Below are positions 20,701 through 48,596 of a DNA stretch of 50,460 nt, piece by piece. The first letter of the stretch is position 1. Each line of letters opens with the position of its first letter. The position numbers were made by a program, and so were the translations under genes. The DNA lies in assembly GCA_903885565.1 (NCBI GenBank), contig CAISJI010000196.1:1-50460 (forward strand). Direction: 5' to 3'. This stretch comes from an uncultured Planctomycetaceae bacterium (lineage in GTDB: Bacteria > Planctomycetota > Planctomycetia > Pirellulales > UBA1268). The notes under the pieces were generated by a model. It had not been told where the DNA came from. It saw only the letters and a program-made list of their open reading frames with translations, and ran no database searches.

Positions 20701-20938
20701 CCTGAAACTCGGTGCTGAGCTTGTAGCTGCGATCTTCGTCAGGTCCCCAGATCCAGGGGGCGAGTCGGGTGTGCGCTGCTGGGTCGGGAGTGGCAACGGC
20801 CGCGTCGGCCCCGCCGACGGGCATTTTCTCCACAGTCTGCCGCCAGATTGCTGCCGGCTCGGCAGCGGCATCCATCTGCATTCCCACGCTGCCGACAAGG
20901 ACCAGAAGCCACGCTCGTACGCAAGCAGAACAACGCAT
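17741..20938 (-). CDS. PVC-type haem-binding CxxCH protein with N-terminal beta-sandwich
   Basis: A ~1065-residue exported protein. After a signal peptide (MRCSACVRAWLLVLVGSVG...) comes a galactose-binding-like beta-sandwich at ~55-175 (WIWGPDEDRSYKLSTEF, MTVMVNGTQVAQSDSWENP, DNELAAVVANAGG). A PVC-type dehydrogenase beta-propeller spans ~205-585 (PGFQVERLFV, NGGPGSGLYRVRDTNGDD, GGEHGPHNIQLSPDGKKLFI, GYRNPYDFAFNADGEMFVYD). A HEAT-like helical part spans ~600-880, and a C-terminal cytochrome c has CIVCH near 931-935, GATGPDLT and a distal Met in SLMPKGL. I start at the ATG at 20938, with GAGG 8 nt upstream, because the longer frame lacks a signal at its N-terminus. It is co-transcribed with the unknown 15944-17737 gene. 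The family is assumed to oxidise sugars or alcohols; the substrate is unknown. Confidence 0.9.
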   Translation of the reverse strand: MRCSACVRAWLLVLVGSVGMQMDAAAEPAAIWRQTVEKMPVGGADAAVATPDPAAHTRLAPWIWGPDEDRSYKLSTEFQGGAKSAILVATADNSMTVMVNGTQVAQSDSWENPVSVDITDLLRDGDNELAAVVANAGGSAGFSCRVTILSADGTKRTVASGKNWTAVEADNPAKPVATKVVAKGGEGPWGDALDGGRSTTRQAAPFAVPPGFQVERLFVTPTGELGSWVCLTTDNKGRLIASDQENKGLVRITPAPLDGSQPTIVEKIPVPLTSAQGLLWAFDSLYVVCNGGPGSGLYRVRDTNGDDTLDSVEKLREFKGGGEHGPHNIQLSPDGKKLFIICGNHTQVPFEMKNITEPQTLGGMRSNQRRVELPPEASSRLPANWDEDLLIPRLWDANGHAVGILAPGGYVVSTDPDGKAWEVWTGGYRNPYDFAFNADGEMFVYDADMEWDFGTPWYRPTRVNHATSGSELGWRSGAGKWPASFPDSLPALSDIGPGSPVGVAFGYGTKFPAKYQHALYICDWTFGTMCAIHLEPEGSSYKAVKEEFVSRTPLPLTDVTVGKDGALYFTVGGRGGQGELYRVTYSGPESTAPANAHDSTGAEARQARQALEKFHRPAADPQAAIALALPALSSPDRFLRYAARVALEHQPIDLWQQKALAVASPRGRTTAAIAVAHQAEPAAQPAVLAALDALDLKALDTAATIDLVRAYQLALIRLGAPERAVASRIATRFAPLFPSGSYDLDRELSSLLVAVRAPGIVTKLVGMLSAESGSGRAINIAPNEEELKKLIARNSGYGSAVRDALEKRADLLHVHYAYVLRTVNEKDAWTIADRKGFYEWFGRARGWAGGASFQKFLTNIETDSLAGLSENDKLALETLGARKAYVPPPLPKPEGPGKEWTVDEVLATAEAHMGKEERDFDRGKRTFAAARCIVCHRYGEDGGATGPDLTQAAGRFQLKDLIEAIVLPSKVVSDQYKGSTVLTTDGKASGGRIVSENAERIVLVTDPEDATKFLEIKRSDIEEIVPASESLMPKGLLNTLSESEVLDLLAYTLSRGNRKDSRFKK

Positions 20939-20964
20939 CAAAAAAACCTCAGAGGGAAAGCGGT

Positions 20965-20994
20965 GGGGATTGGTGCCTCGGGCACACCATCCCC
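20965..20994. promoter_or_regulatory. Strong imperfect hairpin in the divergent promoter region
   Basis: GGGGATTGGTGCC (20965-20977) can pair with GGCACACCATCCCC (20981-20994) around a TCG loop; the inner GTGCC-TCG-GGCAC stem is perfect. It lies 27 nt upstream of the PVC cytochrome start at 20938 (-), and about 145 nt before the sulfatase start at 21139 (+). It could be a structured leader for the minus-strand message or an operator shared by both. There is no T-run, so a terminator is less likely. Confidence 0.4.
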
Positions 20995-21138
20995 GCCCGA
21001 GGCCAACTTCAGGCACTCGAGGGTCAGCAGACTATGATAGTCACCACGGTGGCAGGGTTGAAACGCTGGTTGCCGCAGGCATTTGCGTTGGGGAACAAAA
21101 ATGGTGGATTGGTTTCACGCAGGAGAGAGTTTTCCTCC

Positions 21139-22551
21139 ATGAACAACTGGCGGCTCGCAACGGCCCTGAGAGCGATTTTTTCCCCGCTGGCGGTGTGTCT
21201 GCCGCTGCTGGGCAACCCGGCGGCGGTGGCTGAGACATCGCTCCGGCCGTCCAATGTGGTGCTGATCATCGCCGATGATCTCCACTGGGGAGACGCTGCC
21301 TTCATGGGGCATCCTCATCTGCGCACCCCTCACCTCGATCGGCTGGCGCGGGAGAGCCTGCTGTTTGGGCGCGGGTATGTCACCAGCAGCCTCTGCTGCC
21401 CCAGTCTCGCGTCCATCATCACCGGCCGCTATCCGCACGAGCACAAGATCGTGGGGAACGATCCTCCCGAACGGCCCGACGTGCCGCGACAGTCTCCAGC
21501 TGGCCAGCAGCTCTTTGCCGCGGGCCGCGAGGCGCTGAACCGGCATCTCGATGCCTGGCCGACCATGCCCACGTTGCTCTCCGGTGCGGGCTACAAAAGC
21601 CTGCAAACCGGCAAGTGGTGGCAGGGGGATTTTCAGCGCGGGGGCTTCACCAGCGGGATGACGCGTGGGGAGCGGCATGGCGACGAGGGCTTGGTGATCG
21701 GGCGGAAGACGATGCAGCCGATAGAAGACTTTGTGCGGGGCTGCCGGGCCGAGCAGACGCCGTTTCTGGTCTGGTATGCGCCGCTGTTGCCGCACGACCC
21801 GCACGATCCTGCGGCAGACCTCGTCGAGCACTACAAGACGCTTGCCCCGAGCCTGCCTGTGGCCCGATACTGGGCCAACATCGAGCGTTTCGACGCCACC
21901 GTGGGCGAACTGCTCCGGTTCCTCGACACCGAGGGGCTCGCCGCCGACACGCTGGTGGTGTTTGTCACCGACAACGGCTGGATTCAGGATCCCGACCGGC
22001 CCCGCTTCGCTCCCCGCTCCAAGCTCTCCCCGTATGATGGCGGCCTGCGCACGGCGATCATGCTCCGGCAGCCGGGCCGGATTGAGCCGGCTGTCAGCAG
22101 AGCTCTGGCGAGCAGTCTTGATATTCTGCCGACGGTGCTGGCGGCCTGCAGCGTGGAGCCCCCGGCGGGCCTGCCGGGGATCGATCTCCTCAACGCCCAA
22201 GCGGTGGCACAGCGGCGGCAGATTTTCGGGGAGTGTTACACCCACACGATCGTCGATCTGGATGACCCGGCGAAAAGCCTGCTGTGGCGCTTTTCGGTGC
22301 GCGACGACTGGAAGCTGATCGTGCCGGTGACTGCGGACACACCAGAGGGGGAGCCACGGCGCGGGTTCGCCCGCTTGCAGCGGCCGCCCGACCGAGCGCT
22401 CCCCCCGGAGGGCCTCGGCAGGTTTGAACGGGGCGAACCGGAACTTTACAACCTCGCGGAAGACCCCCATGAACAGGTCAATCTGGCCGACAAACACCCC
22501 GCTTTGGTCGGGGAGTTGCATAAGAGCCTTGATGTGTGGTGGACTCCCTGA
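21139..22551 (+). CDS. Sulfatase family protein with atypical CxPSL active-site motif
   Basis: A 470-residue exported S1-type sulfatase-fold protein. The ATG at 21139 follows AGGAGAGAG and starts a signal peptide (MNNWRLATALRAIFSPLAV...AVAE). The metal-binding element is NVVLIIADDLHWGD, and the C-terminal metal site is VFVTDNGW. A TGKWWQGD segment stands where GKWH is usual. The formylglycine region reads SSLCCPSLASIITGRYP, with Cys86-Cys87-Pro88-Ser89-Leu90, so the Arg of the C-x-P-S-R core is Leu. The C-terminus has FERGEPELYNLAEDPHEQVNLA. A PQQ-like gene follows 33 bp later. It may be a sulfatase matured by a relaxed route, or a related hydrolase without formylglycine. Substrate is unknown. 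Confidence 0.88.
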   Translation: MNNWRLATALRAIFSPLAVCLPLLGNPAAVAETSLRPSNVVLIIADDLHWGDAAFMGHPHLRTPHLDRLARESLLFGRGYVTSSLCCPSLASIITGRYPHEHKIVGNDPPERPDVPRQSPAGQQLFAAGREALNRHLDAWPTMPTLLSGAGYKSLQTGKWWQGDFQRGGFTSGMTRGERHGDEGLVIGRKTMQPIEDFVRGCRAEQTPFLVWYAPLLPHDPHDPAADLVEHYKTLAPSLPVARYWANIERFDATVGELLRFLDTEGLAADTLVVFVTDNGWIQDPDRPRFAPRSKLSPYDGGLRTAIMLRQPGRIEPAVSRALASSLDILPTVLAACSVEPPAGLPGIDLLNAQAVAQRRQIFGECYTHTIVDLDDPAKSLLWRFSVRDDWKLIVPVTADTPEGEPRRGFARLQRPPDRALPPEGLGRFERGEPELYNLAEDPHEQVNLADKHPALVGELHKSLDVWWTP

Positions 22552-24553: not shown

Positions 24554-25888
24554 TTAATTCCCCGGCAGCAACCGGTCGGCGAAGTCGGCAAACCGCAACC
24601 AATCGTATTCGAGGAGATCGTGCTTGCCGCTGCGCAGGTGGTAGCCGATCTGGCGGCCGATCGGGGTATCAACCGGCGGCCACTGCGTTGTGCCGAGGCC
24701 CTCGAGGCCAAACAGCTTCCAGGCAGGCTCTGCGGCCACGGCGCCTAAAAACTCGCCACGCGGATCGGCCCATCGATCCTCCACGGCACTGGCCACATAG
24801 AGCGGCCGCGGAGCGACCATCGCCAGCAGCGTGTGCTGATCGACCGGCAGATCGACCTCGCGGTCGCCATACGTGGCCAGCGTTGGGCAAAACCAATGGG
24901 GAAAGCGGGTGGTGATCTTGGCCACCGTTTCGCCGAAGTTGCGCCGCTCAAGCGCCGCTCCGCCGCAGCCGGAATTGTTTGACACGACCATGGCAAAGCG
25001 CTCGTCGCCGGCACCGGCCCATAAGGCCGCCTTGCCCAGCCGCGAGTGCCCCACCACGATCACGCGCGACGCATCGATCTCCGGCAGCGTCACAAGCCAG
25101 TCGAGAATCCGCGACAGCCCCCAGGCCCAGGCCCCCAAGCTCCCCGGCTCATCGGCGGCGCGCTGGGCAACCGTATCGGCATAGCCGAGGCCGGGCAGCA
25201 CGCTCTGCGCCTGCCCATCCTTGTTGTCGGGATAAAAGTCAGCCGAGGTGGCGGTGGCGGTGGCGTATCCCCGCTCGAGAATCTTTTGAATCGGCCAGCC
25301 GACCGCTTTCGTGCCGCGGGCTGCCTCTGCCGCCGTCACCGCTTCGGGCGTGGCCTGTGGCGCGGAAATATGGAGCGGCAAGCGAATATCGGCGTCAGCA
25401 CTCTCGGCATGGTTCCCGGCGAAATTCAGATGGAGAAACACCGGGAACTTTTTCGGTGCCGAGGCTGTCGCGGGGGAGGTGGGGATCGCGGGGGATGTAG
25501 GGATATAAAGCAATACCTCGGTGGCATGGGCATCGGGCCTGTTCCCCAGCCGCAGCCGCGCCTGCACGCGGGTCGCCCGGCCATCAAAGGCGCTTTCCCG
25601 TTCGACCATCTCGGCCACCACCGGCACAGCTGCCGGCCGCCGCCCATACACAAACTGCTCGAGCAATCGCAGCTGGTGGGGCCGCACCTCGGCCCGCCAC
25701 TGCTGCGGTGTCGTGGCCGGCGTTTGGTTGGGGCCGGCGAGCAGGTCGGGCAGCGTGTAGCTGCGCACCAGAGCCTCGTCGTAGTTGGTGGGCACCGGTT
25801 CCGCTGCCGCTGAGCCGGTCGTCAGCGCCAGGCAGACTCCTCCTGCCATGGCCACCACAGATCCCCACCACAAGCCCTCTGCGTTCAT
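24554..25888 (-). CDS. Glucuronoyl esterase-like (CE15) exported hydrolase
   Basis: A 444-residue alpha/beta-hydrolase. The signal peptide is VVAMAGGVCLALTTGSAAA. The CE15 signature VVGHSRLGKAALWAGAGDERF contains the catalytic Ser at ~282. SNNSGCGGAALERRNFGETV, PHWFC and the C-terminal GKHDLLEYDWLRFADF (catalytic His region) also match bacterial 4-O-methyl-glucuronoyl methylesterases, which split ester links between uronic acids and alcohols in plant and algal polysaccharides. LLYIPTSPAIPTSPATA is a short local duplication. The ATG at 25888 has GGGGAG 8 nt upstream. It is divergent from the ThuA gene. Some CE15 homologues lack measurable glucuronoyl activity, so substrate remains open. Confidence 0.87.
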   Translation of the reverse strand: MNAEGLWWGSVVAMAGGVCLALTTGSAAAEPVPTNYDEALVRSYTLPDLLAGPNQTPATTPQQWRAEVRPHQLRLLEQFVYGRRPAAVPVVAEMVERESAFDGRATRVQARLRLGNRPDAHATEVLLYIPTSPAIPTSPATASAPKKFPVFLHLNFAGNHAESADADIRLPLHISAPQATPEAVTAAEAARGTKAVGWPIQKILERGYATATATSADFYPDNKDGQAQSVLPGLGYADTVAQRAADEPGSLGAWAWGLSRILDWLVTLPEIDASRVIVVGHSRLGKAALWAGAGDERFAMVVSNNSGCGGAALERRNFGETVAKITTRFPHWFCPTLATYGDREVDLPVDQHTLLAMVAPRPLYVASAVEDRWADPRGEFLGAVAAEPAWKLFGLEGLGTTQWPPVDTPIGRQIGYHLRSGKHDLLEYDWLRFADFADRLLPGN

Positions 25889-26031
25889 CGCTTTTTCTCC
25901 CCTCAGGAACAGGCGCACACGGAGGGTGAACGCCACTGCCCAAGCTCTGAGAGTACGCCTTGGGGCTGTGGTAGGCTACTGGGCTGGGGGATGCGATGTG
26001 CCCCCGTGTCGTCTTTTTCCTGAGGTGCTGC

Positions 26032-27200: not shown

Positions 27201-30200
27201 ATGCGTCTGTGTGCGCTGATTTTCCGGCGGTGGTTCGCGATGAGGGTGCTGGTGCTTCTGGTGCTCTTGGCCGGTTGGCCGGCAGGGGCAGCCGAACCGC
27301 CGGCCGGCCGGCCCAACGTTTTATTGGTGATGTGCGATGACCTTCGCCCAGCGCTGCATTGCTATGGGGATACCACCGCCAGTTCGCCCAATATCGACGC
27401 GCTGGCCGCCCGGGGCGTGCGATTCTCCAAAGCCTATTGCCAGTTTCCGCTGTGCAATCCGAGTCGCGCAAGCCTCCTCACCGGCCGCCGGCCGGGCCAC
27501 ACGCAGGTGCGCAACAACGGCCGGCATTTCCGCGCCGTTGCTCCCGATGTGGTGACGCTGCCGCAGGCATTCCGGCAGGCTGGCTACCGGGTGGAGCGGG
27601 TGGGGAAGCTCTATCACTACGGCGTGCCAGCCCAGATCGGCACCGATGGCCTCGATGATCCCCCCAGCTGGGATGCGGTGTTCAATCCCCGCGGCCGCGA
27701 TGCGACCGAGGAGCCGCTGATTTTCTCGCTCGAGCCGGGCAAGTTTGGCGGCACAGTGAGCTGGCTGGCGGCGGAGGGGAGCGATGCCGAGCAGACCGAT
27801 GGCATCGGTGCCGCGCGCGCCGTGGAGTTGCTGGAGGGCTTTGCCGAAACGCACGTGCCGTTCTTTCTGGCAGTCGGCTTCTACCGGCCGCACACGCCGT
27901 ATGTGTCGCCCCGCAGCTGGTTTGGCCAACACCCGTCAGAGCAGATCGAACTGCCCCAGCTGCCGGCCGACCACGATGCGCAGCTCCCCGCAGCGGCACT
28001 CCAGATGCGCGACAAAGAGGAGCAGCGGCTGGTGGGGCCGCTGGGCCGCGAGGCGGTGCAGGCCTATCGGGCGGCCGTGTCGTTTGTCGATGCGCAGGTC
28101 GGCAGCGTGCTCGACGCCCTCCGGCGACTCAAGCTCGACGACAACACGATCATCGTCTTCACCAGCGACCATGGCTACCACCTCGGCGAGCATGGCCTGT
28201 GGCAGAAGCGAACGCTCTTTGAGGAGAGCGCACGGGTGCCGCTGGTGATCGTGCCGCCGCCAGGAACGGTGCCAGCCGGCGTGGGCGGGGCGGGAGTGGT
28301 CGAACATCCGGTGGAACTGATCGACATCCTGCCAACGGTGTGCAGCCTGGCGGGCGTGCCGACCCCCGCCGGCGTGGATGGCCGCAGCCTCGTGGCTGAC
28401 ATCCACGCCGCCTATGACGTAGCTGACGTGAAGCTGGCGACGCGGCCAGCGCTCACGGAAGTTGAATATCCCGGACTGCGGGGCGTCAGCATGCGAACAG
28501 AGCGCCACCGCTACACGCTGTGGAATGGAGGGCAGGCGGGGCGGCAGCTCTACGACCACGACACCGATCCCCACGAATTCCATAATCTGGCTGACAAGCC
28601 GGAACAGGCCGCCACTGTGGCCCAGCTCGACCGACAGCTGCGCGAACTCTACGGTACAGATCTCGCGGCTCCCCCCCGGGAAAAGCCGGATACTTCCGCC
28701 CCATCAGGATCGACTGCGACTCCCGCCAAGGCCGCCGCCCTCCCTGCTCCCACCCGGCCGAATGTGCTGATGATCCTCGCCGATGATCTGGGCTACTCCG
28801 ATCTGGGCTGTTATGGCGGCGAGATCGACACGCCCCATCTGGATGCCCTCGCCGCTGGCGGACTGCGTTTCACGCAGGGCTACAACACCGCCCGCTGCTG
28901 GCCCAGCCGCGCAGCGCTTTTGACGGGATTTTATCCGCAGGCGATCGGGCGCGATGCTCTGCCCGCTGCCGGTTCCCTGCCGGCGCTATCAGGAGGGGGC
29001 GGTGGCCGCCGTCCCTCTTGGGCGAAGCTTCTCCCGGAGTTGCTCACAAGCGCCGGCTACCGCAGCTATCACTCGGGCAAGTGGCACATCGACGGCGCGG
29101 CACTGGAGCAGGGTTTTTGCCGATCGCTGACCGTGAATGCCACTGGAGAAAACAATTTCTTCGATCCGATGGGCGTGGATGATCCCACCGGCCCACCACC
29201 GGCTCAGCAGGATTTCTATCTCACCCGCGCAATTGGCGACCATGCGATCGCCTCTCTGGCGGAGCATGCCCGCAACCATCAGGGCAACCCCTTCTTTCAG
29301 TATCTGGCCTTCACCGCCCCGCATTTCCCGATCCAGGCGCCGGCCGATCTGATCGCGAAATACCGCGAGCGTTATCGGGCCGGCTGGGATGCGGTGCGGC
29401 AGGCACGCTACCGGCGGCTCACAGAGACTGGGTTGGTCACCGGCACTCTTTCGGCGCTGGAAGAGGAGCGCGGTCCCTCCTATCCACCCCCCGCTGAGAC
29501 GCTCGCGCTACTTGGCCCCGGCGAGGTGAATAGACCGCTGCCGTGGCAGTCGCTCACGCCCCAGCAGCAGGCCTTTCAGACTGAAAAAATGGCGATCTAT
29601 GCGGCGATGGTGGAGGCGCTCGATCAGGAGGTGGGACGCGTGATTGAGCAGATCCGCGCGATGGGCGCCTGGAACAACACGGTGATCCTCTTTGCCAGCG
29701 ACAATGGCTCCTCGTCTGAAATCATGGTGCGTGGCGGGGGGCACGATCCGACCGCCGCCCCCGGCTCGGCGCAGAGCTTTCTCTGCCTGGGGCCCGGTTG
29801 GTCGACCGCGGCCAATACCCCCTTTCGCCGCCACAAGGCGTGGGCGCACGAAGGGGGCATTGCCACGCCCTGGATCGTCCACTGGCCGGCCGGGATTCAA
29901 GCGCGGGGAGAGCTGCGCCAGCAACCGGTCCATCTCATCGATGTGACCCCCACGGTGTTGGAGTTGGCAGGTGTGGCACCCCCACGCGAACTGGCTGGTC
30001 GTGCCGTGCCGCCGATGCAGGGGCGCAGCTTCGCAGCCCTGCTGAACGATCCGGCCGCTGCGCCGCCACAGGAAACGCTCTGGTGGTGCCATGAGGAGCA
30101 TCGGGCGGTGCGGGAGGGGAACTGGAAGCTGGTCTCCGACCCCGGCCAGCCCTGGGAGCTTTACAACCTCGCCTCCGATCGCAGCGAGACGGTCGATCTG

Positions 30201-33200
30201 GCGGGGCAGGATTCGGGCCGCGTGGCTGCTCTCGAGGCGCAGTGGCTGAAAACGGCTGCTACCTGCCGGGAACTTGCCGCGGCCGATTCGCCAGTCTCCA
30301 CCGCATCACCGGTTTCCCGCCCCAGCCGGCCGCCCAATGTGGTGATCCTGTTTGCCGATGATCTCGGCTACGGCGATCCCGGGTGTTACGGCGGCAGGGC
30401 GGCTGCCACGCCCAACATCGACCGGCTGGCTCGCCAAGGGGTGCGGTTCACCGATTTTTATGTGGCCCAGCCGGTCTGTTCGGCGTCGCGGGCGGCCCTG
30501 CTCACCGGCTGCTATCCCAACCGGCTCTCGATCCAGGGGGCGCTGATGCCGGAGGATCGGTACGGACTCTCAGCGGCGGAAACGACGCTGGCGGAACTGT
30601 TGCGCAGCCGGGGTTACCGCACGGCCGCTGTGGGCAAATGGCATCTGGGCCATCGCCCTCCCTTTCTCCCGACCCGCCAGGGCTTTGATTCGTATTTCGG
30701 CCTGCCCTATTCCAACGACATGTGGCCCTTTCATCCCGAGACACACCCCGGCCACTTTCCCGACCTGCCGCTGTTGGATGGGGAGAGGGTGATCAACCCC
30801 GCTGTGACGCCCGCAGATCAGGCCAAACTCACCGCCGCCTACACGCAACGGGCGGTGTCGTTTGTCGAAGCCTCTGCCCACAATGAGCAGCCCTTCTTCC
30901 TCTATCTGGCCCATTCGATGCCCCATGTGCCGCTCTTTGCCGGTGAGGCTTTTCAAGGGAAATCGCCGGGGGGAGTCTATGGGGATGTGCTCAGTGAAAT
31001 CGACGCCTCGCTGGGCGCCGTGCTGGCGGCGCTGGAGCGCACCGGCCATGCCGACGACACGCTGGTGATTTTTTCCAGCGACAATGGCCCGTGGCTTTCC
31101 TATGGCAACCATGCCGGCAGTGCCGGCGATCTCCGCGAGGGGAAGGGAACAGTATTTGAGGGGGGCGTGCGGGTGCCCTGTGTGGCCCGCCTGAGCGGTG
31201 TCATTCCCGCTGGGCAGGTCTGCCGCGAGCCGGCGATGACGATCGATCTGCTTCCCACGCTTGCCCGTCTCACTGGCGAGCCCCTGGCAGAGGACTCCAC
31301 CGGCCACTGCCTGGTGGAGGGACGACCGATCGACGGCCACAACATCACTCCCCTGTTCACCGGGCGGCCGGAGGCCGGGCCGAGCCCCGAGCGGGCCTAC
31401 GGCTTTTGGTATCTCGATAACCAGTTGCAGGGGGTGCGTCGCGGCCGCTGGAAGCTGCTTCTGCCACACACCGCCCGCACGATGGCCGGACAGGCTCCCG
31501 GCGCCGATGGAAGGCCGGGAACCTATGCACCCCTGGAAGTGGAAAAGTCGCTCTACGATCTGGTGGCCGATCCGGGTGAGCTGCAGGAGATCTCCGCTGC
31601 CCATCCCGAGGTGGTGGCCCAACTGGAGCAGGTGGCGGAGGAGTTTCGGGCCGAACTCGGCGACACGCTCACTCAAACCCGCGGTTCCGCTGCGCGGCCA
31701 GCCGACAGACTGCCGGAGGAATCGCCGCCTGCCAGCGGGAAGAAGCTGAAGGCCCCCCCCAACATCATCTATGTGATGACCGACGATCAGGGCTATGGCG
31801 ATCTCTCCGCCCACGGCAACCCGGTCCTTCGCACGCCCCACCTCGACCGCCTCCACAGCCAAAGCGTTCGCTTCACCGAGTTTCATGCCAGCCCCACCTG
31901 TGCCCCCACCCGATCGGCGCTGTTGACCGGGCGACATGAATTCCGCTCGGGAGTCACCCACACGATCCACGAACGGGAACGGCTGGCACTCTCCGCGACC
32001 ACACTCCCTCAGCGTCTCTCTTCAGCCGGCTACTCCAGCGGCATCTTCGGCAAGTGGCACTTGGGAGACGAAGACGCCTACCAGCCGCTGCGGCGTGGCT
32101 TCGACCGGGCGTTCATCCACGGGGCTGGCGGGATCGGGCAATCGTTCCCCGGCAGCTGTGGCGATGTGCCGGACAACAGCTATTTCGATCCCTGGGTGCG
32201 TAGCGACGGCATATTTCAAAAAACGCAGGGCTACTGCACCGACGTTTTCTTCACCGCCGCCCTCGCTTGGATCGACCAGTGCCGGCAGGCTGACCGCCCC
32301 TTTTTCTGCATGATCACCCCCAACGCGCCGCACGGGCCCTTGGATTGTCCGCCGGGGAGCGATCGGCAGTATCTTGAGCCGCTTGCCGCCGCGGGCATTG
32401 CCGATCCGCAGGAGCGGGGCAATATCGCCAAGTTCTACGGAATGATCCGCAATATCGACGACAACGTCGGCCGGTTGCTTGAGCGTCTCGAGGCCTGGGG
32501 GCTGGCGGAGAACACGCTGGTGGTCTTCACGACCGATAATGGCACAGCCACCGGTGAAGCAGTCTTCAACGACCAGATGCGGGGCAAGAAGGGAACGCCT
32601 TGGCGGGGGGGCACGCGGGTGCCGAGCTTGTGGCGCTTGCCAGGCGAGTTTCCCGCCGGGGTCGATGTGGCGGCTGTGACGGCGCATATCGATGTGCTTC
32701 CCACGCTCTGCGAACTCGCTGGCGTCGGGCTGCCGGCCGAGGCGCTTGTCGAGGGGCGGAGTCTCGTCCCGCTGCTGCGAGACAAGCATGCCCCCTGGCC
32801 CACGCGCTCCCTCTATACGCATGTCGGCCGGTGGGGACGCGGCCAGGCGGCTCAGGCCAAGTGGGCCAACTGCCGGGTCCGCCGCGATCAGTGGAGCTTC
32901 GTCAACGTGCAGAACCGGGAGACCGGCTGGGAGCTCTACGACATCGCCAGCGATCCGGGAGAAACCCGTAACGTGGCCGCTGACCACCCCCAGATCGTGG
33001 CGCAGTTGAGAAGTGAGTACGACACCTGGTGGCAGCAGTTGCAGCCCGATCTGGTGAATGAAAACCTTGATGGACCGGTCGAAAACCCATTCAAGACCGC
33101 ATTCCAGCGGCAGACAGGCGAGGAGAAGATGGCGCCAGGAGGCAAACGCAAGAAAAAGTTGGAGGCGGCCACTGCCGTTCAGCTCCCGCCGCCGACGCTT

Positions 33201-34052
33201 GTTGATGTCCCCTACGGACTCCACCCCAAGCAGGTGCTCCATTTCTGGAAGGCGGCAGATGCCACTGCAGAGCATCCGTCACCCCTTCTCTTTTTCATCC
33301 ATGGCGGCGGCTGGAACGCAGGCGACCGCGCATCGGTTGGGGATCTGCTGCCCACGCTGCTCGCTCAGGGCATCTCCGTGGTCTCGATCGAATACCGATT
33401 CATCGCTGAGGCGATGGCCGCCGGCATCGATCCTCCGGTAAAGGCGCCGCTCTCCGATGCTGCCCGAGCCCTGCAGATGGTACGCAGCCGCGCCGCCGAA
33501 TGGCATTTCGACCCCACGCGGGTCATTGCCAGCGGCGCCTCTGCAGGCGCCTGCTCAAGTTTGTGGCTGGCTTTCCACGACGACATGGCCGACCCCACCA
33601 GCACCGACCCAGTGGCCCGCCAATCGACACGGCTGCTGGCGGCGGCGGTGACCATCGCCCAGACAACGCTCGACCCGGCTCAGATGCTCGAGTGGACGCC
33701 CAACAGCCGCTACGGCGGCCATGCCTTTGGATTTTTTCGCGATCCCAACGAGCGGGACAGCCAATTTGCGGAGTTTCTCGCTGCCCGCGACAGGCTTCTT
33801 CCGGTGATCAACCAGTATTCCCCCTACGCGCTGGTAACGGCCGATGATCCGCCGGTGCAGCTGGTCTACCGCCGCCCCCCAGCCCTCGGACAGCCGGAGA
33901 AAGATCCCACCCACACCGCAAACTTCGGGGTCAAATTGCAGGAGCGGCTCGCTGCGGTGGGCGTGCCCTGCGAACTTGTCTATCCCGGCGCACCAGACGT
34001 GCGGCATACAAACGTCGCGGAGTATGTGGTCGATACACTGCAGGGAAAGTAG
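27201..34052 (+). CDS. Four-sulfatase plus esterase fusion protein (2283 residues)
   Basis: One open frame with five catalytic modules. An export signal (VLVLLVLLAGWPAGA) lies in residues 1-32. Sulfatase 1 (~36-486): VMCDD, Cys85 in CNPSR, FTSDHGYHLGEH; iduronate-2-sulfatase-like. Sulfatase 2 (~519-1030): LADDLGYSD, Cys566 in CWPSR, FASDNGSS. Sulfatase 3 (~1044-1500): FADDLGYGD, Cys1093 in CSASR, GKWHLGH, FSSDNGPW. Sulfatase 4 (~1519-1953): MTDDQGYGD, Cys1567 in CAPTR, GKWHLGD, FTTDNGTA. Esterase (~1990-2283): HGGGW oxyanion hole at 2034, GASAG with Ser2114, candidate His2269. Each module appears catalytically complete. Linkers of about 25-35 residues are rich in Pro, Ala, Ser, Thr or Lys and carry no internal signal peptide. 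AAGGA precedes the ATG; a second ATG at 27240 is possible. Desulfation plus deacylation of a complex polysaccharide is the inferred role. Confidence 0.93.
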   Translation: MRLCALIFRRWFAMRVLVLLVLLAGWPAGAAEPPAGRPNVLLVMCDDLRPALHCYGDTTASSPNIDALAARGVRFSKAYCQFPLCNPSRASLLTGRRPGHTQVRNNGRHFRAVAPDVVTLPQAFRQAGYRVERVGKLYHYGVPAQIGTDGLDDPPSWDAVFNPRGRDATEEPLIFSLEPGKFGGTVSWLAAEGSDAEQTDGIGAARAVELLEGFAETHVPFFLAVGFYRPHTPYVSPRSWFGQHPSEQIELPQLPADHDAQLPAAALQMRDKEEQRLVGPLGREAVQAYRAAVSFVDAQVGSVLDALRRLKLDDNTIIVFTSDHGYHLGEHGLWQKRTLFEESARVPLVIVPPPGTVPAGVGGAGVVEHPVELIDILPTVCSLAGVPTPAGVDGRSLVADIHAAYDVADVKLATRPALTEVEYPGLRGVSMRTERHRYTLWNGGQAGRQLYDHDTDPHEFHNLADKPEQAATVAQLDRQLRELYGTDLAAPPREKPDTSAPSGSTATPAKAAALPAPTRPNVLMILADDLGYSDLGCYGGEIDTPHLDALAAGGLRFTQGYNTARCWPSRAALLTGFYPQAIGRDALPAAGSLPALSGGGGGRRPSWAKLLPELLTSAGYRSYHSGKWHIDGAALEQGFCRSLTVNATGENNFFDPMGVDDPTGPPPAQQDFYLTRAIGDHAIASLAEHARNHQGNPFFQYLAFTAPHFPIQAPADLIAKYRERYRAGWDAVRQARYRRLTETGLVTGTLSALEEERGPSYPPPAETLALLGPGEVNRPLPWQSLTPQQQAFQTEKMAIYAAMVEALDQEVGRVIEQIRAMGAWNNTVILFASDNGSSSEIMVRGGGHDPTAAPGSAQSFLCLGPGWSTAANTPFRRHKAWAHEGGIATPWIVHWPAGIQARGELRQQPVHLIDVTPTVLELAGVAPPRELAGRAVPPMQGRSFAALLNDPAAAPPQETLWWCHEEHRAVREGNWKLVSDPGQPWELYNLASDRSETVDLAGQDSGRVAALEAQWLKTAATCRELAAADSPVSTASPVSRPSRPPNVVILFADDLGYGDPGCYGGRAAATPNIDRLARQGVRFTDFYVAQPVCSASRAALLTGCYPNRLSIQGALMPEDRYGLSAAETTLAELLRSRGYRTAAVGKWHLGHRPPFLPTRQGFDSYFGLPYSNDMWPFHPETHPGHFPDLPLLDGERVINPAVTPADQAKLTAAYTQRAVSFVEASAHNEQPFFLYLAHSMPHVPLFAGEAFQGKSPGGVYGDVLSEIDASLGAVLAALERTGHADDTLVIFSSDNGPWLSYGNHAGSAGDLREGKGTVFEGGVRVPCVARLSGVIPAGQVCREPAMTIDLLPTLARLTGEPLAEDSTGHCLVEGRPIDGHNITPLFTGRPEAGPSPERAYGFWYLDNQLQGVRRGRWKLLLPHTARTMAGQAPGADGRPGTYAPLEVEKSLYDLVADPGELQEISAAHPEVVAQLEQVAEEFRAELGDTLTQTRGSAARPADRLPEESPPASGKKLKAPPNIIYVMTDDQGYGDLSAHGNPVLRTPHLDRLHSQSVRFTEFHASPTCAPTRSALLTGRHEFRSGVTHTIHERERLALSATTLPQRLSSAGYSSGIFGKWHLGDEDAYQPLRRGFDRAFIHGAGGIGQSFPGSCGDVPDNSYFDPWVRSDGIFQKTQGYCTDVFFTAALAWIDQCRQADRPFFCMITPNAPHGPLDCPPGSDRQYLEPLAAAGIADPQERGNIAKFYGMIRNIDDNVGRLLERLEAWGLAENTLVVFTTDNGTATGEAVFNDQMRGKKGTPWRGGTRVPSLWRLPGEFPAGVDVAAVTAHIDVLPTLCELAGVGLPAEALVEGRSLVPLLRDKHAPWPTRSLYTHVGRWGRGQAAQAKWANCRVRRDQWSFVNVQNRETGWELYDIASDPGETRNVAADHPQIVAQLRSEYDTWWQQLQPDLVNENLDGPVENPFKTAFQRQTGEEKMAPGGKRKKKLEAATAVQLPPPTLVDVPYGLHPKQVLHFWKAADATAEHPSPLLFFIHGGGWNAGDRASVGDLLPTLLAQGISVVSIEYRFIAEAMAAGIDPPVKAPLSDAARALQMVRSRAAEWHFDPTRVIASGASAGACSSLWLAFHDDMADPTSTDPVARQSTRLLAAAVTIAQTTLDPAQMLEWTPNSRYGGHAFGFFRDPNERDSQFAEFLAARDRLLPVINQYSPYALVTADDPPVQLVYRRPPALGQPEKDPTHTANFGVKLQERLAAVGVPCELVYPGAPDVRHTNVAEYVVDTLQGK

Positions 34053-41084: not shown

Positions 41085-42044
41085 TCAGTCTGGGCGCCCG
41101 TTGCTTCCGGCGACACTCGCCATGCGGCCCGCCCGGAAGGCCTCGCCCATGGCCTTGGGCACCAACGCCTCTGCCCTGAGCACCTGCGAGCGATTTTCGG
41201 CAGTGGAAGCCTTCATTTCCTGCTCGCGGGCAATGGCGAAACTGCGGCGTTCTTCCGCCTTGGCCCTGGCCACACGGGTGTCGGCCTCGGCCTGATCGGC
41301 CTGCAGTCGCGCGCCGATGTTCTCCCCCACCTCAATGTCGGCGATATCGATGGAGACAATCTGAAAGGCGGTTTGGGCGTCGAGTCCGCGTTGCAACACC
41401 GCCTTGGAGATCGTATCGGGGTGCTCCATCACCTCAAAGTGGCTCTCGGCAGAGCCTATTGAAGTGATGATCCCTTCGCCGACGCGGGCGATGATTGTTT
41501 CCTCGGTGGCGCCGCCGATGAGTTGCTGCAGGTTGGTGCGCACCGTCACGCGGGCCCGGATTTTCAATTCCACGCCGTTTTTGGCGACGGCTGAGAGCGT
41601 CGTTTTGCCGCTCACGCCCTCGGGGCAGTCGATCACCTTGGGATTGACGCTCGTCTGCACAGCATCGAGCACATCCCGGCCGGCCAGATCGATCGCGCAG
41701 GCCCGATCGAAGTCGAGATCGATGTCGGCGCGCTGGGCGGCGATGAGGGCGCGAATCACGCGGGGCACATCGCCGCCGGCGAGGGAATGGGCTTCCAGAC
41801 GCCGGGCTGAGATTTCTCTGCCGAGCCCTGCCTGGGTCGCCATGATCTGCGCCTGCACGATCGTGCGGGCGTTGACTTGGCGGAGGCTCATGCCGAGCAA
41901 TTCCAGAAACGTGACGGGGGCCTTTGACCAGTAGGACTGAAACCAGAGTTGACCGTAGTTGAAAATGAGCAGCAGCATCGACAGCGCGACCAGCGCCAGT
42001 ACGATGCCGGCCACGACCATCACGGAAAGCGGCAGGGAATCCAC
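41085..42044 (-). CDS. floA: Flotillin-like protein FloA
   Basis: A 319-residue SPFH-family membrane scaffold protein. An N-terminal membrane hairpin ([23 protein letters not shown]) is followed by the FloA signature: [82 protein letters not shown]. Next come the SPFH core ([46 protein letters not shown]) and the EA-rich coiled coil ([26 protein letters not shown]). FloA organises membrane microdomains. The start is a GTG at 42044 with GAGG 7 nt upstream. The NfeD-type partner often encoded beside floA is not seen here. Length is typical. Confidence 0.94.
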
Positions 42045-45026: not shown

Positions 45027-45476
45027 TTAGCGGCGGCTGGCCACTTGGCCGGTCGGCGTGAGTTCGTCGATGATCTTGGGAATGTAGCGACTGAGCACCT
45101 CAGCGAGCTGGTCGCGGTCGATGTTGCGCTTCTTGGCCAGTTCGTCCATCTCGCGGCTGCCAAAGACATCCTCAATCTGGCGGCGATCGACCGGCTTGTT
45201 CGGGCCGGTGCGAACCCAGGAATCGACCTCCTCGCGCAGGCCTTTCTCCTCAAATTGCTTCACAACCTCAGGCAGCTTCTGGGCATCGTTGCCCCCGAAA
45301 ATCTGCTTGAAGATCTCTGACAGATCGTTGGAGGAGGGCATCTCCTGCGGGCCCCGCTGTTGGGGAGCGGGGGCTCGCTGCTGGGGCGCCGGGGCCCGCT
45401 GCTGCTGAGGCGGCTGTTGCTGCTGCTGTGCCGCACCTTCCAGAACCTGTTTCAGAATCTCGCCCAGAATGTCCAT
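45027..45476 (-). CDS. YidB-like (DUF937) protein with Gln/Pro/Ala-rich segment
   Basis: A 149-residue protein. The N-terminal helix MDILGEILKQVLEGAA leads into a low-complexity segment (~17-45) of poly-Gln and repeated APAPQQR units. The C-terminal domain is of the YidB/DUF937 type: LPEVVKQFEEKGLREEVDSWVRTGPNKPVDRRQIEDVFG, then ELAKKRNIDRDQLAEVLSRYIPKIIDELTPTG. I chose the ATG at 45476 (GGAG 6 nt upstream) over 45488. It is cytoplasmic by sequence. YidB proteins have no settled function. It is divergent from the glycosidase-like gene at 45628. The Q/P/A repeats look like recent expansion in a tolerant linker. Confidence 0.82.
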   Translation of the reverse strand: MDILGEILKQVLEGAAQQQQQPPQQQRAPAPQQRAPAPQQRGPQEMPSSNDLSEIFKQIFGGNDAQKLPEVVKQFEEKGLREEVDSWVRTGPNKPVDRRQIEDVFGSREMDELAKKRNIDRDQLAEVLSRYIPKIIDELTPTGQVASRR

Positions 45477-45627
45477 GCCACGCTCCATGTCTCAAAAAAA
45501 AATGGTTCCACGCCAGTCGCCGATTTTAGGCGGTCGTCTGCCCAAAAGAAAGCAATGGGCGGCCACATGTTGGCTCAGCCCGTCTGCAGGGGTGCGGCGT
45601 GAGCCTGAGTCTGGGTATGATCAGGCC

Positions 45628-46680
45628 ATGATTGCGTTCACTTTTTGGCATCCAACGGCGCGACGCTGGCTGGGGAAAAAGCCCTCCCTGACCTCTCTGG
45701 TGGTGGCGGCCGCGGTCCGGGCCAGCCTGTGGGGGCTGGCCGTTTGCTGGGTAACTGCAACGCTGCAGGCGGACGAGCCAACTCCCCGCCCGCTCCCGTT
45801 TCCGAGCGAACTTGTCGAGTTTGGCCCGGCGTCGCGCGTGCCGCTCTTTACCGGCGGCGGCGCAGAGGCATGGGACCGCGATCTCCGCGAGCGTGGCTGG
45901 ATCATGCGCGAAGGGGGGCGGTGGCACCTCTGGTACACCGGCTACAACCGCGCCGCCAACTCGCCGCGCCTGCTGGGATATGCCAGCAGTGCCGATGGCC
46001 TCAACTGGACCCGCAGCCCAGCCAATCCGCTGATCGGGGATGCCTGGGTGGAGGATATGTGCGTGGTGCGCGAAGGGGGCCGCTATGTGATGGTGGCCGA
46101 GGGGGAACAGGACATCGCCCACCTCCTCACCTCCGCCGACCGGGTTCACTGGCAGCGCCATGGCCCGCTCGATATTCGCCTCTCGACAGGGGCGCCGATC
46201 GCCGACGGCCCACGGGGCACTCCGGTGTTATGGCGGGAGCATGGGCTGTGGCATCTGTTCTATGAGCGGATCGATAAGGGGATCTGGCTGGCCACCTCCA
46301 GCGATCTCAAGGTTTGGACCAACGTGCAGGATGATCCGGTGATGGAATGCGGCCCCGCGGAGCATGACTCGCGCGAGATCGCATTCAATCAGATCGTCAA
46401 GCACTGCGGCCACTACTACGCCTACTACCACGCCAGCGCCCGGCCGGGGCAGTGGTGCAGCTGCATTGCCGCCAGCGACGATCTGCGGCACTGGCAGAAG
46501 TATTCTGGCAACCCGGTGCTCCCGGTCGATCCCGCCGTGCCAGCCGCCAGCAGCCCGCTCTTGGTGCCCGACGGCAACCGCCACCGGCTGTACACCACGC
46601 ACCCCGATGTGCGAGTGCGGTTTTCGGTGTTGCCGGTGACGGGCGCTGCGGCAACGGTCGGCTCCGCTGCCGGCAGGTGA
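45628..46680 (+). CDS. Exported five-bladed-propeller glycosidase-like protein
   Basis: A 350-residue protein. A long hydrophobic N-terminus (SLTSLVVAAAVRASLWGLAVCWVTATLQA) precedes repeated blade motifs typical of GH32/43/117/130-like propellers: WIMREGGRWHLWYTGYNR, LLGYASSADGLNWTRSPANPLIGDAWVEDMCVVREGGRYVMVAEG, LTSADRVHWQRHGPLD, GTPVLWREHGLWHLFYER, IWLATSSDLKVWTNVQDDPVM and SCIAASDDLRHWQKYSGNPVLP. Asp/Glu residues suitable for catalysis recur (WVEDMC, HDSREIAFNQI), but I cannot assign a GH number. The ATG at 45628 has a poor Shine-Dalgarno sequence; upstream in-frame codons lack a signal. A role in trimming exported or environmental glycans is plausible. Confidence 0.8.
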   Translation: MIAFTFWHPTARRWLGKKPSLTSLVVAAAVRASLWGLAVCWVTATLQADEPTPRPLPFPSELVEFGPASRVPLFTGGGAEAWDRDLRERGWIMREGGRWHLWYTGYNRAANSPRLLGYASSADGLNWTRSPANPLIGDAWVEDMCVVREGGRYVMVAEGEQDIAHLLTSADRVHWQRHGPLDIRLSTGAPIADGPRGTPVLWREHGLWHLFYERIDKGIWLATSSDLKVWTNVQDDPVMECGPAEHDSREIAFNQIVKHCGHYYAYYHASARPGQWCSCIAASDDLRHWQKYSGNPVLPVDPAVPAASSPLLVPDGNRHRLYTTHPDVRVRFSVLPVTGAAATVGSAAGR

Positions 46681-47071: not shown

Positions 47072-48517
47072 TCAGTCCTCCGCTTTCTCCCCCTCGGGGG
47101 CCATCTTCACCAGACGCGGATCGAACCGGCCGAGCGTCTCCACCAGATCGGCCTGCGCGGCCATCACGGCATGGATGTCTTTGTAGGCCAGCGGCACTTC
47201 ATCAATGCCGGCGCTGAGCAGGTCGACTCCCTGCTGTGATAATTCTGCCCGCACCTGCGGCCAGCGGAAGCTCTGGCGGGCCTGCGTTCGGCTCATTTTC
47301 CGGCCTGCTCCGTGGCTGGCCGAATGGAGCGATGCCGCGACGCCGCGACCGCGCACAATAAATCCCGGCGCCGCCATCGACCCCGGGATGATGCCGAGGA
47401 TGCCGGCCCCGGCAGGCGTGGCCCCCTTGCGATGCACGATCAGGCGCTGCGCCACCCCATCGATCTGGTGCTCCTCCTCCCAGGCGAAGTTGTGGTGGTT
47501 TTCGATGTCGAGGATCACTTCCGCGCCGAGGTGACGCACGATCTGGCGGTGGATCACGGCATGGTTGGCGGCGGCATAGCGGCCCATCAGGTTCATAGCC
47601 CGCCAGTATTCCTGCCCGGCAGGGGAATCGAGCGGCAGCCAGGCGAGCTGCCGCAGTTCGCGGGGCAGACCGGGGCAGAGGGTCATCGCCAGTCGGGAAT
47701 AGTGGTCGCAGACCGAGGCGCCGGTGCCGCGCGAACCGGAATGGGAGAGCAAGGCCAGGAAGACACCAGCTCCAGCCAGCCCGAGCGCCCGGGCCTGCGC
47801 CGCATCCACGCTGAGCGTGCCAAACTCCACAAAATGGTTGCCGCTGCCGCTGGTGCCCAACTGCAGCCGGGCCTTGTCGCGATGGCGGAGCGTGATCGGG
47901 GAAACGGTCCAATCCTCGTCGAGCACCGGATGCTCGCGGGGGGGAGTAGCCTGCGGATCGCCGCGGCGGCCAAACTCCGCGCCGATGCCAAACCGGGTTT
48001 CCACTTCCAGCGCCCGGGCCAGCCGATCGCGCTTGGACTGGAGCCAGCCGGTCGGCAGGTCGAGCACTGAGAGCTTCATCCGGCAGGCGATATCGACTCC
48101 CACGGCGTAGGGCACGACGGCGTTCGCTGTCGCCAGCACCCCGCCGATCGGCAGTCCGTAGCCGACATGGGCGTCGGGCATCAGCGCCGCCGCCACCGCC
48201 ACCGGCAATTGCACCGCCTGCCGCATCTGCCCCAGCGCCTGTTCGTCGATATCACTCCCCCATTGCCGCCAAGGGGCAGGGTCTCGGCGGGGGGAGAAGC
48301 TCGGCGTGCCGGCGGCCCGCTGCTGCACCAGGTCGCGGGCCAGCCGGCCGAAGTGGGGATCGGCTGTGCACTGCTCGGGAGCCGACACAAGCGCCGCGAG
48401 CTGGCCGCGGATCTCCTGCTGCCCAACGCCCGCCCGCCGCGCCTCGGCCACAAGCTGCTTGGCCAGTGGCACAAGCGCCGACGGCAGGCCGATTTTTTCC
48501 AGTGCCCGGCTATTCAT
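47072..48517 (-). CDS. rtcB: RNA-splicing ligase RtcB
   Basis: A 481-residue RtcB-family protein, the GTP-dependent ligase joining 2',3'-cyclic phosphate or 3'-phosphate and 5'-OH RNA ends. Key elements are MPDAHVGYGLPIGGVLAT, AVGVDIACRM (Mn ligands Asp and Cys145), LGTSGSGNHFVEF, LLSHSGSRGTG, ENHHNFAWEEE, VHRKGATPAG and HSASHGAGRKMSR with the candidate guanylylated His at ~402. All expected metal ligands and the nucleotidyl His are visible. A helical N-terminal ~90 residues precede the core. The ATG at 48517 lacks a clear Shine-Dalgarno sequence. No archease gene is nearby. It is divergent from the SDR gene 79 bp away. Confidence 0.94.
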   Translation of the reverse strand: MNSRALEKIGLPSALVPLAKQLVAEARRAGVGQQEIRGQLAALVSAPEQCTADPHFGRLARDLVQQRAAGTPSFSPRRDPAPWRQWGSDIDEQALGQMRQAVQLPVAVAAALMPDAHVGYGLPIGGVLATANAVVPYAVGVDIACRMKLSVLDLPTGWLQSKRDRLARALEVETRFGIGAEFGRRGDPQATPPREHPVLDEDWTVSPITLRHRDKARLQLGTSGSGNHFVEFGTLSVDAAQARALGLAGAGVFLALLSHSGSRGTGASVCDHYSRLAMTLCPGLPRELRQLAWLPLDSPAGQEYWRAMNLMGRYAAANHAVIHRQIVRHLGAEVILDIENHHNFAWEEEHQIDGVAQRLIVHRKGATPAGAGILGIIPGSMAAPGFIVRGRGVAASLHSASHGAGRKMSRTQARQSFRWPQVRAELSQQGVDLLSAGIDEVPLAYKDIHAVMAAQADLVETLGRFDPRLVKMAPEGEKAED

Positions 48518-48596
48518 GATGCGACTGGTTTTACCATGATGGATGCCTCCGCCGTGGCTCCGCCCTCCCCCCACTCATTCCAGGCTCATCCTCCCG

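Follow-up and report, generated by a model that had tools for sequence, protein, structure and literature searches.

The window analysed here, a stretch of 50,460 nt, is from an uncultured Planctomycetaceae bacterium of the order Pirellulales (contig CAISJI010000196.1 of assembly GCA_903885565.1). It contains a gene for a 2283-residue chain in which four sulfatase modules, termed S1 to S4, and an esterase-like alpha/beta-hydrolase module, termed E, follow one another in a single reading frame. The positions of modules, active-site cysteines and neighbouring genes are listed in Table 1; the sulfatase bounds are those of a purpose-built domain model, and the esterase was taken as the stretch from residue 1985 to the end. 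Without its first 31 residues the chain has a predicted mass of ∼244 kDa.

Table 1. Features of the fusion gene and of nearby genes; positions are those of the window and residues those of the 2283-residue chain.
Feature	Position	Strand	Residues	Remarks
Frame S1-S2-S3-S4-E	27201..34052	+		ATG start; 2283 aa; stop-free inside
Signal peptide-like segment	27201..27293	+	1-31	sole one before any sulfatase module; alternative start Met14
Sulfatase S1	27312..28652	+	38-484	nearest 6hhm arylsulfatase, iduronate-2-sulfatase 5fql
S1 formylglycine-precursor Cys85	27453..27455	+	85	CNPSR; same in 18/19 ortholog rows, 1 gap
Sulfatase S2	28758..30278	+	520-1026	Pseudomonas arylsulfatase-like; 7all (8.3e-81), 4cxk/1hdh
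S2 formylglycine-precursor Cys566	28896..28898	+	566	CWPSR; CWP[ST]R in 60/60 ortholog rows
Sulfatase S3	30333..31676	+	1045-1492	arylsulfatase A / GALNS-like (human); 1e33, 1auk, 4fdi
S3 formylglycine-precursor Cys1093	30477..30479	+	1093	CSASR; same in 28/29 ortholog rows, 1 gapped
Sulfatase S4	31758..33056	+	1520-1952	nearest 7stt, 3ed4, carrageenan sulfatases; 6prm
S4 formylglycine-precursor Cys1567	31899..31901	+	1567	CAPTR; C[AS]PTR in 51/52 ortholog rows, 1 gap
Esterase E, alpha/beta-hydrolase, BD-FAE / HSL-like	33153..34049	+	1985-2283	PF20434, 4e-17; EST2 1evq/1qz3, 4.5e-10
ThuA-domain gene, 393 aa	25996..27177	+		PF06283, 2.8e-42; 23 bp upstream of fusion; first operon gene
Separate sulfatase near the fusion	20848-22551	+		domain scan
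Glucuronyl-esterase-like gene near the fusion	24554-25936	-		domain scan

At the domain level, Pfam places PF00884 in four stretches of the chain (713 bits summed), SGSH_C in three and Sulfatase_C in one. A profile search of the organism's own genome gives the PF00884 stretches as 27312–28358, 28758–29975, 30333–31277 and 31758–32726, and each of the four modules covers the 301-position profile from its first position to position 300 or 301. In the esterase the BD-FAE match spans residues 2021–2222, and Abhydrolase_3 is also matched. No module of the chain rises above a curated NCBIfam cut-off. The nearest solved structures of S1–S4 and E (Table 1; by fold, 6bia ranks first for S4) represent likeness and are no proof of substrate. 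Pairwise identity between S1, S2, S3 and S4 in local alignments is ∼24–33%, which indicates different enzymes and no recent copies. A recent tandem duplication of one sulfatase was considered and is excluded by these identities and by the presence of separate orthologs for each module.

Homologs were compared in a family sample of 72 genomes from 12 genera, of which 65 match the protein at 1e-180 or better; loci were obtained for 64 of the 72, the window included. The roles of the metal-binding DD, the formylglycine and the GK, PH and DH/DN motifs are general knowledge for sulfatases. In S1–S4, in this order, DD is at residues 46, 528, 1053 and 1528, GK at 135, 626, 1145 and 1617, PH at 230, 707, 1241 and 1710, and DH/DN at 323, 834, 1294 and 1779. 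Each of the four modules thus has every sequence feature of a formylglycine-dependent sulfatase of the S1 family (C/S-x-P/A-S/T-R, DD, GK, H, D-N/H). Ortholog alignments, one per module and composed of family members and the window, have a mean identity to the window of just 63–69%; in these the cysteine motifs are retained (Table 1), as are the other sulfatase motifs inspected, a few truncated rows being gapped there. The esterase has HGGGW at residue 2034 and GASAG at residue 2112, and with an HGGG oxyanion motif, a G-x-S-x-G nucleophile and a C-terminal His it has the features of BD-FAE / HSL-type enzymes; all 29 aligned rows have HGGGW, G-x-SAG and the C-terminal His (residue 758 of the alignment). 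Module decay was also considered, and is excluded by the conservation of catalytic motifs in all modules.

A maturation enzyme also appears to be available. PF03781 is matched nine times in the genome, and the best match (2.6e-80) contains the two-Cys stretch GGSFLCTEQYC, which resembles the active site of the formylglycine-generating enzyme (FGE); the protein is regarded as an FGE candidate. For the anaerobic sulfatase-maturating enzyme, anSME, no TIGR03942 match is found in the genome.

Family architectures were read from open reading frames (ORFs) taken from stop to stop, since frame lengths in the genome-search listing sometimes run across stops. Examples are a frame of 2736 residues in genome G019 that corresponds to ORFs of 891 and 1844 aa, and one of 1271 residues in genome G028 that corresponds to ORFs of 732 and 513 aa. 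All fusion claims at the cluster rest on the stop-to-stop ORFs, and the genome-wide counts for G006, G061 and G012 given below rest on listing frames.

S1-S2-S3-S4 is found in one ORF in the window and in G006, G047 and G050, with 64–71% identity per module; in G016, S1-S2-S3 are fused as far as the contig end. In G006 the frame, of 2698 aa from stop to stop (locus L101, 5492–13585, + strand), contains five sulfatases, the most in any frame encountered. In G014, S1-S2-S4 and another sulfatase share one ORF, the 5′ end of which lies beyond the contig, and G061 has S2-S4 with two other sulfatases in a 2070-aa frame (L190, 4197–10406, − strand) as well as a double in the adjacent frame. ORFs with at least two sulfatases are present in 59 of the 64 family genomes, with at least three in 28 and with at least four in six, the window included. 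S4-E is fused in 32 genomes, S2-S3-S4 in 18 and S1-S2 in seven; of the 57 family S2 genes that could be scored, 52 have a downstream fusion. The module order S2-(S3)-S4-E is conserved across genera, with many genomes having no S3 between S2 and S4 and some having another sulfatase in place of E. Judged by sequence, two or more unrelated sulfatase domains from neighbouring genes are present in one gene.

Signal peptide-like segments were scored as nine residues with a mean hydropathy of at least 2.2, a self-set cut-off, and the counts cover modules with a recognisable anchor. In the window chain the maximum mean over nine residues is 3.71 before S1, and 0.73, 1.03 and −0.04 before S2, S3 and S4. 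Across the family, such a segment precedes S2 in 50 of 52 cases when S2 opens the chain and in none of seven when it is internal. For S4 the figures are 2/3 when first and 0/46 when internal, and for other sulfatases 65/75 and 2/40; before an internal S3 the segment occurs once in 27 cases. S1 when first has it in 13 of 16 cases, and the three without it have ThuA ahead in the same ORF. Presence at chain starts and near-absence internally suggest that the 2283-residue chain is most likely exported as one piece. This pattern is the strongest indication that the fused chains are real proteins, each exported in one piece.

An assembly or consensus error that united separate genes would be a trivial explanation. 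The assembly is a draft with 279 contigs, and third-position guanine-plus-cytosine content is 0.59–0.74 in the four linkers vs. 0.76 for the frame, so that codon composition alone is no proof that the linkers are coding. However, the same junctions are found in other genomes at ∼60–70% protein identity, and the linkers stay in frame without hydrophobic starts. Conserved junctions elsewhere and the lack of internal signal segments practically refute an artefact. The original prediction had proposed four distinct sulfatases and an esterase in one real chain, and had named internal stops, or homologues always encoded separately, as signs of an artefact. The distinct modules are borne out by one frame with intact conserved motifs and low mutual identity; the frame has no stops, the same fusions occur in other assemblies, and most of the family genomes have multi-sulfatase ORFs. 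On homology, which spans the full length, and on module order, which recurs in other genomes, the chain is judged to be beyond chance.

Apart from the window, 45 family genomes have a ThuA homolog at the locus (47 loci in all, the window among them). The ThuA ORF of 39 such loci ends at most 400 nt from an ORF that begins with S1 or S2, or is fused to it; in the other eight, the ThuA ORF and its neighbour overlap by 421–627 nt (stop-to-stop), and ThuA therefore neighbours the sulfatase ORF there too. ThuA-S1 fusions occur in G019, G043 and G044. In genus g11 one stop codon separates in-frame ThuA-S1 and S2-S3-S4-E (L103, 4497–12704, + strand; L164, 5963–14311, − strand; L165, 6211–14340, − strand). 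Spacing between separate S1 and S2 genes was taken from the eight genomes with scripted pairing: in G007, G017, G041 and G042 the end of S1 and the guessed start of S2 share 4 nt, and the gap is 10 nt in G040, 36 nt in G019 and G044 and 151 nt in G072. The varied spacing and fusion borders point to one operon that has been cut into chains at different places.

A midpoint-rooted tree of 59 S2 domains, which is a tree of one gene rather than of species, was used to count changes in architecture. S1-S2 fusion requires six changes over 58 scorable tips, seven of them fused, and label shuffles have a mean of 6.7 and a minimum of 5. The identity of what follows S2 requires 10 changes vs. a shuffled mean of 22.4. 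As the S1-S2 changes are within the shuffle range, fusion to S1 appears to have been gained or lost repeatedly. In genus g7 a near-identical signal peptide is found in four chains that begin with S1 and in five of seven that begin with S2, which indicates the in-frame loss or gain of an entire module behind the signal. G016 has both the S1-first and the S2-first form, and the start of the latter is identical to that of G053; contamination could be an alternative source of this double form.

The reading favoured here, with a probability of about 0.7, is that of a genuine exported single-chain multi-enzyme that arose by in-frame fusion of adjacent genes in a ThuA-S1-S2-S3-S4-esterase operon. The whole chain would be exported via Sec, and the FGE candidate would activate all four active-site cysteines. 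The sulfatases may clear sulfates at different positions or from different sugars, and the esterase may take acyl groups off the same polysaccharide, which would be a decorated one and perhaps contain uronic acid. Flexible Pro/Ala-rich linkers would hold the modules together. The benefit would be a fixed 1:1:1:1:1 dosage, a single export event and a high local concentration, with no rigid processive assembly.

The linkers are rich in Pro, Ala, Ser and Lys and are variable. In a structure model of S4-E (mean predicted local distance difference test, pLDDT, 80.8; predicted template modelling score, pTM, 0.58), the linker has a pLDDT of ∼30–41 between better modelled domains, and neither the S4-E linker (29 rows) nor the S1-S2 linker has an invariant column. 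As the linkers lack conservation and the S4-E linker is modelled with low confidence, a flexible tether is the preferred reading, ahead of an assembly that is rigid or processive. A processive or substrate-channelling desulfation machine with a defined inter-module architecture, akin to the processive or concerted one suggested in the original prediction, might be considered, in view of four sulfatase types and an esterase per chain and of the S2-(S3)-S4-E order conserved across genera. This is very improbable, since S3 is often absent and E is sometimes exchanged for a sulfatase, which makes a strict geometry unlikely, and the linkers look flexible and are unconserved. The linkers raise the further question of whether the chain is a polyprotein, exported whole and then cut by proteases at exposed linkers to free five independent enzymes. 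The composition and variability of the linkers, and the low confidence of the modelled S4-E linker, would be consistent with this; but the linkers listed for different genomes share no motif such as a dedicated protease site might need, and with no invariant column in the two that were aligned, the polyprotein appears improbable.

Several observations weigh against an exported, tethered multi-enzyme. The exact S1-S2-S3-S4-E architecture is found in the window and in none of the other 63 family genomes, and S1, S3 or E is missing or separate in relatives, so that the full fusion is not essential. Conservation of the architecture, which the original prediction proposed to look for in relatives, holds for S1-S2-S3-S4 in three other genomes and fails for the complete set. 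The S1-S2 model has a pLDDT of 54.7 and a pTM of 0.45 from 7 alignment rows, probably due to a want of diverse sequences, and values this low say nothing about how the two modules pack. Signal segments were scored by hydropathy, with no trained predictor. The S3 motif is CSASR, with Ala instead of Pro; this Pro is reported as conserved in 87% of sequences, with Ala as the chief substitute (PMC5066984). No lyase is found among the 20 ORFs scanned of the 102 in the window that are at least 150 aa long, and the sole hint of a glycoside hydrolase among these 20 is a weak GH32/GH43-like match (45469–46680, + strand). Lastly, of the 23 sulfatase frames in the organism's own genome 20 are single and three, all confirmed as ORFs, have more than one sulfatase; for such multi-sulfatase frames, hand counts from the listing give 1/14 in G006, 2/16 in G061 and 3/74 in G012. 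These low genome-wide counts indicate that the lineage does not fuse all of its sulfatases.

At the cluster itself, 91 of 175 sulfatase ORFs in family loci hold at least two modules (38 of the family sulfatase ORFs are cut by the end of a stretch), vs. 2 of 117 in 79 other loci (L022–L100) obtained with the same protein, a contrast that is biased by the centring of family loci on this cluster. Family membership of the 79 loci was judged by best module identity alone, which is at least 60% in three loci and for S3 only. The original prediction held that sulfatases are normally encoded singly; this is correct genome-wide, in the organism's own genome and similarly in three relatives, and incorrect at the cluster. 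Fusion is thus mostly a feature of this operon, at which it is the norm.

The same data suggest another explanation, near-neutral operon compaction, whereby genes for secreted sulfatases that lie close together join and separate again with little functional gain, and the modules act independently. Fusion borders that vary widely between and within genera, S1-S2 fusion changes that lie within the range of shuffled labels, 4-nt gene overlaps in several relatives and low fusion genome-wide (as in G012, and in G028 of another family, with two doubles among 134 matches) are all consistent with it. Compaction of this kind is rather unlikely in view of the near-constant downstream fusion of S2, the absence of internal signal segments, the retention of active sites and, within the bias noted above, the rarity of doubles in the 79 other loci. 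A more far-reaching form of the multi-enzyme reading is that the family made one sulfatase operon into combinatorial megaproteins of up to five sulfatases per chain, with modules fused, deleted and inserted behind one signal peptide, and that a tethered chain clearly outperforms separate enzymes on one polymer. This is offered tentatively, as perhaps the case.

Beyond the family, matches to the 2283-residue protein were sought with a cut-off of 1e-150 in 57 genomes of the order (five of them in the family) and in 79 of the phylum, a set that includes the organism's own genome. Outside the family no two matches were found in one frame, in a search that ranks matches to this protein alone, is blind to more distant relatives and to multi-sulfatase genes of other origin, and left frames of some length, G120:C209 (943 aa) among them, unopened. 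Doubles of other types do occur outside the family, two in G028 and one each in L027 and L031. Genome G028 (one contig, closed, 6.6 Mb) is from another family of the order and has 134 PF00884 matches, with its two double-sulfatase frames confirmed; in G025 there is no double frame among the matches listed. Two members of family f19, G122 and G089, have S3 and S4 relatives, 54–56% identical, as adjacent separate genes with a signal-like segment each, and in G035 the S1 and S4 relatives adjoin in separate ORFs.

With respect to known systems, a gene with two sulfatase domains has been described in planctomycetes P1 and P2 from Porphyra, and sulfatase genes with esterase/lipase and other domains are also mentioned (Kim et al., 2016, PMC4807772, in the part on sulfatase genes). 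That gene has two sulfatases vs. four or five here, and no operon-fusion series is described in that part. In the available portion of PMC5066984, proteins with several sulfatase modules are mentioned without numbers; these are multi-module S1-family sulfatases like the chain here, with module number, taxa and architecture unstated. Sulfatase–glycoside hydrolase fusions of subfamily S1_7 in Kiritimatiellales also join a sulfatase to another polysaccharide-active domain, and the partner is a glycoside hydrolase, in contrast to the sulfatases and esterase here (PMC6388578, in the portion that treats them). The solved structures 6hhm/5fql, 7all/1hdh, 1auk and 7stt/6bia are alike per module in sequence (S4 also in fold), but with ∼450–540 residues each corresponds to one module. 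A protein of Formosa agariphila presumably consists of a sulfatase and a GH78 rhamnosidase, unlike the several sulfatases here, and the molecule name of 6hr5 agrees. It is termed an ulvan ‘multimodular sulfatase’, in which, as here, the sulfatase is part of a multi-domain polysaccharide-active chain (PMC8511951, in the text available).

Searches of an open-access collection of papers brought up no protein with three or more sulfatases, and only PMC4807772 and PMC5066984 bear on the matter. The original prediction knew of no described protein with four distinct sulfatase modules; this needs the qualification that a planctomycete gene with two was published in 2016. Fusions of this kind are thus known. 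In the open-access literature searched, nothing describes a chain of four or five modules, the inclusion of the esterase or the family-wide series.

Microbes break down sulfated polysaccharides with difficulty, because many different sulfatases must act jointly. A chain that unites an esterase with sulfatases of four types offers a ready-made prediction as to which steps of desulfation go together. Relatives in which the modules are split, fused in part or fused throughout form a natural series for the study of tethering and operon fusion, and represent a clear case of multi-enzyme evolution via repeated in-frame operon fusion. In addition, sulfatase gene counts undercount active sites at such clusters.

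Sulfatase content varies strongly inside the family: G012 has 82 PF00884 matches in 3.5 Mb vs. 18–28 in G006, G061 and the organism's own genome. Two further double-sulfatase frames are present in the latter, at G000:C92:27264-29534 (971 aa) and G000:C130:10926-13253 (1026 aa). In the window, the separate sulfatase and the glucuronyl-esterase-like gene near the fusion (Table 1) are accompanied by GFO/IDH/MocA genes, with a sodium-solute symporter downstream, a neighbourhood that by its gene content would fit polysaccharide use. There is a second multi-domain chain in the window, of 1542 aa (7628–12256, − strand), which has ThuA, GDSL lipase, DUF7133 and HEAT domains. Also present on the − strand are genes for the RtcB RNA ligase (47072–48574) and the FloA flotillin (41085–42044).

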